A stretch of 6,990 bases of DNA from positions 1-6,990 of the forward strand of contig CALEDJ010000042.1 in assembly GCA_937951485.1 (NCBI GenBank), read 5' to 3'. Position numbers and translations under genes: made by a program. Origin of the DNA: an uncultured bacterium. GTDB lineage: Bacteria > Hydrogenedentota > Hydrogenedentia > Hydrogenedentales > CAILVY01. How positions within the stretch are numbered: the first letter of the stretch is position 1; the number at the start of each line of letters is the position of its first letter. This document shows, piece after piece, positions 4,919 to 6,990 of the stretch. The notes beneath the pieces were generated by a model. The model was not told the DNA's origin. It ran no database searches and worked only from the letters and a program-made list of their open reading frames with translations.

Positions 4919-6109
4919 TCAGGGCCTTGCCATCATGGCCTCGAAAGCGGGGGTGGTAATTTCGGTGAAGCCGTCACGGCCGTCGTGGAGGAAGAACAGC
5001 GCGGCGATTCCGTGACGCCGGGCGAAGGCCAGGCCCTCGTCGGGACCAAGCGCCATGATCGCGGTGGCGTAGGCGTCGGCCCAGGCGCATTCGGGGTGGA
5101 AAACGCTGACGGAAGCGAGCGCATGCGCGACGGGGCGGCCCGTGCGCGGGTCAATGGTGTGCGACTGGCGAACGCCGTCCACCACGCGGAAGTTGCGGTA
5201 ATCGCCGGAGGTGGCCAGCGCCATATCGCGAAGCGCCACGACGCGCGCGACGGCGCGCCGGTCGGGATCGGGGCGTTCGATGCCGATACGCCAGGGGACG
5301 CCGCGTTCGTTCTCGCCGCGCGCGCGCACTTCGCCGCCGACTTCGATCATGTAGTGGGCGATGCCGCGCGCGTCGAGCGCCTCGGCCACACGGTCCACGG
5401 CGTAGCCCTTGGCGACGGCGGACAAGTCGCAGTAGAGGTCCGGGAGATGCTTGCGGAGGTGGCCGTCTTCGGTCATCTCGAGGTGTTGATAACCGACGCG
5501 GGCGCGCAGACCTTCGATGGCGGCGTCATCCGGCGGCGACGCGGGCGGGTCCGGACCGAAGCCCCACGCATTGACCAGCGGGCCGACCGTGATGTCGAAT
5601 GCGCCGCCGCTCTGACGGCTGACTTCCAGGGCAATCGCAAACACCCCGGCCACGGGCGCATCCACGGGGAACGGCGCGTCGCTTGCGTGCCGGTTGAACC
5701 GGGAGAGTTGCGAATCGGGATCATACGTGGACATCAGGGCGTTGACCTCCTCCAGCCGATCCCGGATAACCTGTTCCATCGCGACGGACGAGAAATCCCC
5801 GACCGGCGGCGCAATCACCTTCACGGTGTACACCGTGCCCATCGTCTGCCCCGTAAAAACATGCACGACAGGCCCGCGCCCACACCCGCCCAGCAGCGCC
5901 GCGCAAAGCAAAAGAAATATCTTTGTTGTGGCCGGTCTTTTGTTGTGGCCGGTCTCCTGACCGCGCCACAGGTTCACTTTGTTGTGGCCGGTCTCCTGAC
6001 CGCGCCACAGGTTCACTTTGTTGTGGCCGGTCTCCTGACCGCGCCACAGGTTCACTTTGTTGTGGCCGGTCTCCTGACCGCGCCACAGCCCCCGACCGAA
6101 GGTCTCCAT
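4919..6109 (-). CDS. apbE: FAD:protein FMN transferase, ApbE-family lipoprotein; 5' end made of REP repeats
   Basis: ApbE enzymes attach FMN through a phosphoester to Thr/Ser of proteins such as NqrB/C and RnfD/G, on the outer side of the inner membrane. Counting from ATG 6109 (396 residues), the landmarks are a hydrophobic stretch and lipobox ALLGGC with Cys76, then MGTVYTV (90-96). These are followed by LMSTYDPDSQLSRFN (125-139), FDITVGPLVNAWGFG (171-185) and DLSAVAKGYAVDRVAEAL (228-245). IEVGGEVRARG (255-265), SGDYRNF (301-307), HTIDPRTGRPV (317-327) and ADAYATAIMALG (344-355, likely Mg ligands D345 and T349) complete the domain. The oddity is at the front: residues 1-63 are translated REP repeats, a 13-residue unit containing RGQETGHNK. 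No native Met precedes the signal peptide core. Candidate starts are TTG 6133 (GGAG 10 nt upstream, overlapping the RAYT stop by 11 nt), ATG 6109 inside a repeat, or a repeat GTG such as 5977. A flavinylation target is not in the window. Confidence 0.85.
   Translation of the reverse strand: METFGRGLWRGQETGHNKVNLWRGQETGHNKVNLWRGQETGHNKVNLWRGQETGHNKRPATTKIFLLLCAALLGGCGRGPVVHVFTGQTMGTVYTVKVIAPPVGDFSSVAMEQVIRDRLEEVNALMSTYDPDSQLSRFNRHASDAPFPVDAPVAGVFAIALEVSRQSGGAFDITVGPLVNAWGFGPDPPASPPDDAAIEGLRARVGYQHLEMTEDGHLRKHLPDLYCDLSAVAKGYAVDRVAEALDARGIAHYMIEVGGEVRARGENERGVPWRIGIERPDPDRRAVARVVALRDMALATSGDYRNFRVVDGVRQSHTIDPRTGRPVAHALASVSVFHPECAWADAYATAIMALGPDEGLAFARRHGIAALFFLHDGRDGFTEITTPAFEAMMARP
5922..6088 (-). 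repeat. Left REP-like array: 39-bp tandem hairpin units
   Basis: Three perfect 39-bp units (5939-5977, 5978-6016, 6017-6055) are followed by a 33-bp fourth unit (6056-6088) and preceded by a 16-bp partial unit (5922-5937). Each full unit contains an imperfect palindrome. In unit 1, TGTGGC (5944-5949) pairs with GCCACA (5965-5970) and CGGTC with GACCG, around a TCCT loop, with one unpaired C: an 11-bp stem with a single bulge. The units are in frame with apbE. Copies in opposite orientation occur at 6768-6979. Confidence 0.9.
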
Positions 6110-6112
6110 ATT
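6056..6112 (-). repeat. Left inverted-repeat arm of the RAYT element
   Basis: On the minus strand from 6112 this 57-bp arm starts AATATGGAGACCTTCGG. It runs through one hairpin unit to ACAAA at 6056. The right arm (6744-6799, plus strand) is the same except for one G fewer in a G-run and A instead of G at the hairpin bulge. It lies 10 nt beyond the RAYT stop codon. Confidence 0.85.
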
Positions 6113-6122
6113 CCCCGTTTTC

Positions 6123-6668
6123 TTACCACTCAATCGGCGTTATCTCCAAATCCGCATGGTCATCTTTTCCCTCAACATAGAAACGCGCGGACGAAAACCG
6201 CCAGTCCTCAGGATACCGTACAAGTCCTTTGCGGCAGGGATTATCATGCAAATAGTCCAGTTTCTGCCGCCAGAACCCTTCCGAGGCAATGGCTATGGGG
6301 TGTTGGCCCGGTTGCCAGAAACGGCGCATTCGGTCCGATGCGGCGCCGTCCCGAAATGCCTTGCTGAACATGGGGGGAAGATGCTTCGCCACGTAGTCAA
6401 GCATCGCGCGCCCGGTGTATTTGCGAAATGCATTCCAGGATTCCGCCAATCTGCCGGAATTGTGATCCTTGTCAAAGACGATCACATGCAAATGCGTCGG
6501 CATGATTACGTAAGCGTTGATGCGCAGTTCCGCGTTCACAACGCAATACGTCAAACTATCGGTGACAATCCTGCATGGCATTTCGTTGATGAAGACCGGT
6601 AGCCATTGAAACACGGAACATGTGATGAAATAGACGGAACAGTCTTCGTGAATGCGATGCGTGTACAT
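6123..6668 (-). CDS. rayT: REP-associated tyrosine transposase (RAYT, Y1/HUH family)
   Basis: This 181-residue protein matches the Y1_Tnp single-stranded-DNA transposase fold related to IS200/IS605 TnpA. Features seen: VYFITCSVF (12-20), the HUH-type metal-binding motif MPTHLHVIV (56-64, H59 and H61), and a basic central region around 82-120 ending in RRFWQPGQH. The RAYT-typical segment QKLDYLHDNPCRKGLV (135-150) carries the likely nucleophile Tyr139, and DWRFSSAR is at 155-162. No residue needed for activity is obviously missing and the length is usual for the family. RAYTs bind and nick REP hairpins and are often single-copy, domesticated genes flanked by their REPs. Here inverted, near-identical REP arrays flank the gene on both sides. 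The start is ATG 6668, without an evident Shine-Dalgarno. Its last 11 nt can overlap the TTG-initiated frame of apbE downstream on the same strand. Confidence 0.9.
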   Translation of the reverse strand: MYTHRIHEDCSVYFITCSVFQWLPVFINEMPCRIVTDSLTYCVVNAELRINAYVIMPTHLHVIVFDKDHNSGRLAESWNAFRKYTGRAMLDYVAKHLPPMFSKAFRDGAASDRMRRFWQPGQHPIAIASEGFWRQKLDYLHDNPCRKGLVRYPEDWRFSSARFYVEGKDDHADLEITPIEW

Positions 6669-6675
6669 GGGGAAT

Positions 6676-6704
6676 AGGTTAGCGGGACGGGAAAGGAATG
6701 TAAA
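6676..6704 (-). promoter_or_regulatory. Candidate promoter for the RAYT gene
   Basis: On the minus strand TTTACA (6704-6699) is followed after 17 nt by TAACCT (6681-6676), a modest -10. Only 7 nt separate this -10 from the ATG, so transcription would begin close to the start codon and give a leaderless mRNA. That fits the absence of a Shine-Dalgarno. The -35 directly abuts the right repeat array. Confidence 0.35.
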
Positions 6705-6770
6705 GCGCGCAATATGGAGACCTTCGGTCGGGGCTGTGCGCGCAATATGGAGACCTTCGGTCGGGGCTGT
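6705..6770 (+). repeat. 33-bp tandem duplication at the RAYT-proximal end of the right array
   Basis: Two perfect 33-bp copies, 6705-6737 and 6738-6770, start GCGCGCAATATGGAG and contain a small GACC-TTC-GGTC hairpin. This is the module that begins each arm of the inverted repeat; the left side has it once. Confidence 0.9.
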
Positions 6771-6799
6771 GGCACGGTCAGGAGACCGGCCACAACAAA
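6744..6799 (+). repeat. Right inverted-repeat arm of the RAYT element
   Basis: This 56-bp arm is inverted relative to 6056-6112 and near-identical to it. It contains the GACC/GGTC mini-hairpin and then the full REP hairpin at 6768-6794 (TGTGGC, bulged A, CGGTC, loop AGGA, GACCG, GCCACA). The orientation of both arms points away from the transposase gene. Confidence 0.85.
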
Positions 6800-6990
6800 A
6801 GTCAGGAGACCGGCCACAACAAAGGCACGGTCAGGAGACCGGCCACAACAAAGGTGTGCTGATTGGCGACGCACTGGAGACCTTCGGTCGGGGCTGTGGC
6901 ACGGTCAGGAGACCGGCCACAACAAAAGTCAGGAGACCGGCCACAACAAAGGCACGGTCAGGAGACCGGCCACAACAAAGGTGTGCTGAT
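6748..6990 (+). repeat. Right REP array: 127-bp higher-order tandem repeat (continues past window)
   Basis: Two identical 116-bp copies (6748-6863 and 6875-6990) are separated by 11 bp, giving a 127-bp period. Each holds one mini-hairpin module, one complete REP hairpin, a 5'-truncated REP (6801-6823 and 6928-6950), a shorter-stem REP (6824-6852 and 6951-6979), and the tail GTGTGCTGAT. The second copy ends exactly at the window edge, so the array probably continues. All frames are open over long stretches, but the apparent peptides are translated repeats, not genes. Confidence 0.88.

Follow-up and report, generated by a model that had tools for sequence, protein, structure and literature searches.

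The window analysed here, a complete contig of 6990 bp (C42) from a genome of 4.55 Mb in 77 contigs, very probably carries a REPtron, in which one RAYT is accompanied by its cognate REPs, each built of two hairpins. The RAYT would mobilise these REPs, and they would spread as inverted pairs, or REPINs. What we observed in support of this reading is the two-hairpin module, its dispersal, its link to one RAYT clade, the grammar of its pairs and the dispersal of its derivatives. A REPtron of this type is undescribed in the literature searched, which had few subscription papers and did not contain the 2017 classification of RAYT groups.

The RAYT gene and its flanking repeats

The central gene encodes a TnpA-REP-type HuH/Y1 transposase (Table 1). 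The protein matches the NCBIfam model NF047646 (REP_Tyr_transpos) with 95.3 bits (E = 3e-27; cut-off 80), and Pfam gave no match even at E = 10. The intact reading frame of 181 aa and the score above the cut-off bear out an earlier note on this DNA, which had described a complete Y1-type transposase gene. The HuH motif reads THLH (H59, H61), and the protein also has WQ (W118, Q119) and the catalytic Y139 within YLHDNP; H59, H61, Y139, N143 and P144 are invariant in an alignment of 19 RAYTs. A structural model built with this alignment reached a pLDDT of 88 (a single-sequence model with a pLDDT of 32 was discarded). The predicted fold most closely matches 4er8, a complex of TnpA-REP with a REP hairpin (Z 14.7; rmsd 2.1 across 133 residues), with the transposases of IS608 and ISDra2 next (Z ~11). 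The gene is present in one copy and has no other relative in the same genome.

Table 1. Features of the RAYT locus in the 6990 bp window
Feature	Position	Strand	Details
ApbE gene	4919-6133	-	left REP array overlaps its 5' part (5906-6133)
Left tandem array	5925..6058	-	39 bp period; no mini-hairpins
Left terminal composite REP unit	6057..6107	-	covariance model 69.3 bits, E 2.7e-19; ssDNA fold z -4.0; outer main hairpin 6059-6086, inner mini-hairpin about 6094-6107
Minimal element REP-RAYT-REP (putative)	6059..6798	.	ends GTTGTGGC...GCCACAAC(AR)
RAYT (TnpA-REP-type HuH/Y1 transposase)	6123..6668	-	181 aa, uninterrupted ORF
Additional inner mini-hairpin	6716..6730	+	direct repeat of 33 bp at 6705-6737 and 6738-6770
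Right terminal composite REP unit	6749..6798	+	covariance model 71.4 bits, E 5.6e-20; ssDNA fold z -3.5; inner mini-hairpin 6749-6762, outer main hairpin 6769-6793, then AAC
Right tandem array	6801..6990	+	127 bp period: 6748-6874, then 6875 to contig end

Each arm places a mini-hairpin (GGA, then GACC-TTC-GGTC) on the gene side and a main hairpin, ending in CCACAAC, on the outside; folded as single-stranded DNA, the composite forms two hairpins in both the left and the right arm (z scores in Table 1). The arms are complementary over 37 nt at 97% (6056-6092 / 6763-6799) and over 28 nt at 93% (6090-6117 / 6739-6766), in agreement with the near-identical inverted arms reported earlier. The core GGAGACCGGCCACAAC occurs ten times in the window, four times on the left on the minus strand and six times on the right on the plus strand, and never in 200 shuffles. 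The element likely ends at 6059 and at about 6796-6798, limits placed to correspond to those at which the deletion derivatives of genus g3 (see below) terminate; the coordinates 6056-6799 in the earlier note lie within 3 bp of them.

The left array contains three main hairpins (5942, 5981, 6020) and a truncated unit (5925-5938). The right array has a second full composite unit (6876-6925) as well as 5'-truncated main hairpins, and the contig end falls inside it. Multi-unit arrays had been described on both sides and are indeed there, but the left one amounts to four full 39 bp units and one truncated, and each unit of the 127 bp tandem on the right has a single full main hairpin, the other two being truncated at the 5' side. 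Likewise, the single-base bulge is found in the copies of the window's genome but is not conserved across the clade. Contig C70 terminates in a composite unit matching the window's right end (L020, C70:14736-14757) and may be its true neighbour.

Other features of the contig were recorded as well. With units of 39 bp, or 13 codons, the left REP array keeps the reading frame as it passes into the ApbE lipoprotein signal. REP sequence supplies the codons directly before IFLLLCAALLGGC, and a GTG within the REP linker is the closest start codon that looks plausible. ApbE orthologues have other N-termini, and the original start of this gene may have been supplanted by REPs. At the contig start, a PETase/hydrolase-like gene has a repetitive (GE)n stretch (1-152), probably an assembly break. 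A direct repeat, TTGTCCGCTAAGTTCCGGCCAGACGCGTGATGCGCGCC, is located at 1087-1124 and 1159-1196, where its second copy overlaps the end of a glycosyltransferase gene.

Dispersal of the composite REP in the genome

A search for the modules elsewhere in the genome, proposed in the earlier note, yielded at least 80 covariance-model matches to the composite REP. The REP core with up to two mismatches has 36 genome sites (none for the reversed control), and the copies are scattered over many contigs. Outside the RAYT locus, the mini-hairpin and the main hairpin mostly occur together as one composite. A rough gene caller based on codon usage placed 24 of the 32 checked sites between genes, and the remaining eight, called intragenic, fall at, or close to, the beginning of a possibly overlong ORF. 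The composite repeat is the cognate REP of the window RAYT, and the statement that the RAYT is flanked by its own REPs holds up, given the inverted composite arms, the genome-wide dispersal, the single RAYT and the TnpA-REP-like fold. The idea of an active hub generating REPs is consistent with the dispersed copies and with the association of RAYTs and REPs across the phylum (see below).

A two-hairpin module shared by one RAYT clade

RAYT relatives were sought in 84,980 species genomes. Those with 42–60% identity were found in Hydrogenedentota, Planctomycetota, Chloroflexota, Desulforhabdus and one Thermoplasmata bin, and a phylum search added further RAYTs with identities up to 62%. The clade is rare in Planctomycetota, where a close RAYT turned up in one of the 294 genomes drawn. 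An archaeal host for the Thermoplasmata locus (L042) was dropped as unsafe because a neighbour protein ends in YLPLVMRN and a short tail; we take this ending to resemble those of Chloroflexi surface proteins, and the locus may be a misbinned bacterial contig in a contaminated bin.

All 16 clade RAYT loci (from Hydrogenedentota, Planctomycetota, Chloroflexota and Desulfobacterota) have two-hairpin flanks, degenerate at some of them (L039, L043), and no such flanks were recognised around RAYTs outside the clade. In the tree, the 16 flank-bearing RAYTs form one side of a single branch (support 95/87), and none of 500 shuffles was as clustered. The inward/outward order of the modules is the same across phyla. 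The Desulforhabdus RAYT is nested among planctomycete RAYTs with support of 98/91, pointing to a transfer between phyla.

The module, a mini-hairpin plus a main hairpin, is 49–52 nt long. Across 41 aligned modules, GGA never varies and the mini-hairpin stem hardly does, and the outer stem varies with compensation, reaching a covariation of 0.175 versus 0.050 ± 0.010 after shuffling and no more than 0.08 when partners are slid. In the same alignment, 90.9% of the cells are paired, a percentage biased upward because the structure was proposed from those same sequences, and the compensating changes are the stronger evidence for the predicted structure. The foot position reads GTGG in 24 of the 41 modules, inside the covarying stem, and CGCG, AGTG, GCGG and others elsewhere; a fixed GT[AG]G foot is absent across the alignment. 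The repeat had earlier been said to match no nameable REP class, and this agrees with the literature searched: it lacks the conserved GT[AG]G foot and has an almost invariant mini-hairpin.

Comparison with known systems

Similar to known REPtrons (TnpA-REP; Nunvar 2010, PMC2817692; Quentin 2018, PMC6006769), the locus has a single-copy HuH/Tyr enzyme with Y---NP, inverted flanking REPs dispersed in the genome, and 4er8 as the best structural match. Known RAYTs have [ND]HuH, whereas the window RAYT has THLH, and the REP differs from those of known REPtrons by its two-hairpin module without a conserved GT[AG]G foot. Canonical GTAG REPtrons (subclasses 2.2, 2.4, 2.5, 2.7 and 2.8) are thereby set apart both by their GT[AG]G foot and by E100, H101 and R104. 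Indeed, GTAG is read in E. coli by W94, Q95, E100, H101 and R104 (PMC6006769); the window RAYT retains W94 and Q95, whereas the other three are replaced by P124, I125 and A128. A REP without a fixed foot fits a RAYT with these GTAG-contacting residues replaced.

Subclass 2.6 (PMC6006769; Bertels group 5), described mostly from Bacteroidetes, is flanked by 'atypical secondary structures'. Compared by published motifs, it resembles the window RAYT in having WQ and about 180 aa; its motifs are NH[LIV]H, WQ and YIH[QN]NP, against THLH, WQ and YLHDNP here. Anaerolineaceae members of the clade (NHLH / WQ / YIHQNP) match the subclass 2.6 motifs exactly, whereas the Bacteroidetes RAYTs fetched are 25–28% identical and lack two-hairpin flanks. 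The IS200/IS605 elements (IS608, ISDra2) share the HuH/Y1 fold (Z ~11) and subterminal hairpins. Unlike them, the locus has no visible tnpB, Y---NP instead of Y---Q, inverted ends and a single copy; class 1.1, with Y---Q and several near-identical copies, thus differs from the one YLHDNP copy found here.

Inverted pairs and deletion derivatives in relatives

Genome G071 (Pirellulaceae) has, among the 67 modules listed, 20 neighbouring pairs within 300 bp, and every one of them stands in -/+ order; 18 of 20 inspected regions hold discrete units, most of them 107–135 bp long. Main hairpins lie outside and mini-hairpins inside, and the bounds are GTTGTG...CACAAC or near variants. Judged by sequence, these pairs are REPINs with a grammar matching that of the RAYT element. 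Like the REPINs of Bertels and Rainey (2011; PMC3116915), they are inverted REP pairs spreading as units, with a fixed order and the main hairpin outside; unlike those, they have two hairpins per arm, and in genus g3 the interior is RAYT-derived. Such pairs spreading as a unit were found in relatives of the window's genome both as the G071 pairs and as nine derivatives in genus g3.

The genus g3 derivatives are 216–278 bp elements (roughly 220 bp) at nine places in two genomes, each with inverted REPs around pieces of the RAYT. The C94 copy is collinear with the full element of genome G005 in three blocks, which implies two internal deletions; four other copies share its layout, and the filler differs in C148, C26, C44 and C17, which make up a second subfamily. 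Eight of the nine copies start with GTTGTGG and all nine finish with CAACAG, the left side of C17 being degenerate. Their flanks are unrelated, save for one duplicated pair (C26, C44), and no derivative is present at the orthologous one-sided flanks in g3 congeners. If REPINs originate in RAYT elements that lose internal sequence, copies such as these, which come from relatives and not from the window's genome, would be the expected intermediate. Bertels and Rainey (PMC3116915) named the origin of REPINs from a RAYT element as one possibility, with RAYTs apparently unable to move themselves.

Other partial copies were seen in relatives. RAYT fragments in G023 (C158 and C188; L098, L099) were rejected as element copies; they belong to a duplicated stretch of 2.5 kb or more, with 97% identity, that includes a RAYT fragment (aa 1-75). 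In genome G004, the 3' end of the RAYT (aa 140-181) occurs twice with one REP (L095 and L096; C69, C145), preceded by a common GGTCAAATCCGGGACAG stretch in otherwise differing contexts. Another dispersed repeat, about CCCCCGGCGCTTCGCGCCACCCCCTTCAAAGGGGGAT, is present in G000 and abundant in G003-G005 (L019, L022, g3 flanks).

Occupied and empty sites

The whole REP-RAYT-REP unit could also be an autonomous IS200/IS605-like single-strand transposon, from which the REPINs and the 220 bp derivatives would descend as non-autonomous forms. Orthologous spacers that are empty or otherwise filled in two genera speak for this. In genus g43, the G065 spacer holds the RAYT block, the orthologous G064 spacer is about 110 bp long, and G066 has an unrelated 785 bp insert. 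In Desulforhabdus, a spacer of ~1 kb with the RAYT and REPs in strain TSK corresponds to 91 bp between the same two neighbours in the congener G079. However, neither comparison is base-exact, and presence or absence may also arise through recombinational acquisition or loss. The joined-flank search for base-exact empty sites in genus g3, swamped by another repeat family, found only one-sided orthologous flanks without the element. No exact insertion emerged from aligning the Anaerolineaceae loci L044 and L046, whose RAYT-side array lengths differ; the outer upstream stretches lack orthology, which makes this alignment uninformative.

The exact REP ends of the g3 deletion derivatives and the inter-phylum transfer suggested by the Desulforhabdus RAYT also favour an autonomous transposon. 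Against it, at most one full-length clade RAYT was found per genome searched, and no plasmid or phage record has a close relative. We hold this explanation to be possible but somewhat doubtful because the genomes searched contain no second full-length copy. The earlier proposal of an element that still moves as a unit is therefore supported by the occupied and empty spacers and the dispersed, exact-ended derivatives, but not by copy number; the comparison with loci lacking the element, suggested alongside it, gave such loci in two genera but not the exact ends. With the same reserve, the clade can tentatively be seen as a surviving mobile kind, whose full unit would still transpose and cross phyla and whose REPINs would be born by internal deletion, with the g3 family midway.

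REP numbers with and without a RAYT

REP modules were counted in 68 genomes of the phylum; most genomes compared are MAGs, and the counts, taken from listed matches, are lower bounds. The five genomes with a full clade RAYT contain from at least 12 to at least 80 modules each, two genomes with RAYT remnants at least 39 and at least 68, and 55 others 0–3. Six genomes (G040, G014, G003, G038, G050, G055) have between at least 27 and at least 85 modules with no clade RAYT detected. At least ten REPs are thus present in 7/7 genomes with a full or remnant clade RAYT versus 6/61 of the rest (Fisher p = 2e-6, a test that ignores relatedness and is inflated by shared ancestry). Genomes of the other phyla have 4–133 modules, and at least three of the six in Desulforhabdus sp. 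TSK adjoin the RAYT. On these counts, the RAYT-REP association across the phylum appears strong, not strict. The earlier note named two findings that would refute its reading of the locus, absence of the repeats elsewhere in the genome and high copy in genomes lacking such a RAYT; the repeats are present elsewhere, but the second applies in part, since the association is not strict and six genomes are REP-rich. RAYT loss, known for E. coli REPtrons (PMC3733652), or MAG assembly gaps may explain these genomes.

REPs abundant without a clade RAYT would also be expected if they were host elements, such as transcription terminators or RNA stabilisers, among which the RAYT had inserted or which it borrows, with no role in spreading; a terminator-like scan matches two array units, near chance. 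We find this very improbable, as the module type tracks the RAYT clade across phyla in the same inward/outward order, half or more of the TSK copies lie beside the RAYT, and the deletion derivatives carry RAYT sequence between their REPs. Plain tandem duplication without mobility, with symmetry from inverted duplication around the gene, accounts for the 39 bp and 127 bp periods and is true of local array growth, but as a full account it is refuted by the copies on many contigs and by the inverted two-hairpin arms around clade RAYTs in every phylum sampled, leaving it a negligible chance.

Proposed mechanism and implications

Binding, cleavage and the role of the RAYT as mobiliser are the parts of the REPtron reading that we infer. 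The TnpA-REP enzymes of E. coli, Stenotrophomonas and Marinomonas bind folded single-stranded REP DNA, cleave it by a tyrosine and transfer strands (PMC8266576). By analogy, the HuH/Tyr enzyme would bind the module of mini-hairpin and main hairpin on single-stranded DNA. The GGA-GACC-TTC-GGTC mini-hairpin and the NGGA loop might act as specificity marks replacing the GTAG foot, a guess from their constancy in sequence. Y139 would cut beside the outer ...CCACAAC end, and with the strands rejoined, REP pairs in inverted orientation would spread as REPINs.

The origin and spread of REPs, which are common among bacteria, are an old question. The literature searched contains no paper that combines REPINs, RAYTs and internal deletion, and none that links Hydrogenedentes with REPs. 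Descent of REPINs from the ends of IS200-like elements has been proposed, with no intermediates in that literature; the g3 copies keep REP ends together with RAYT pieces. The clade also provides a system for testing what a RAYT reads and whether it moves itself, one in which the constant part is the mini-hairpin and not the GTAG foot.
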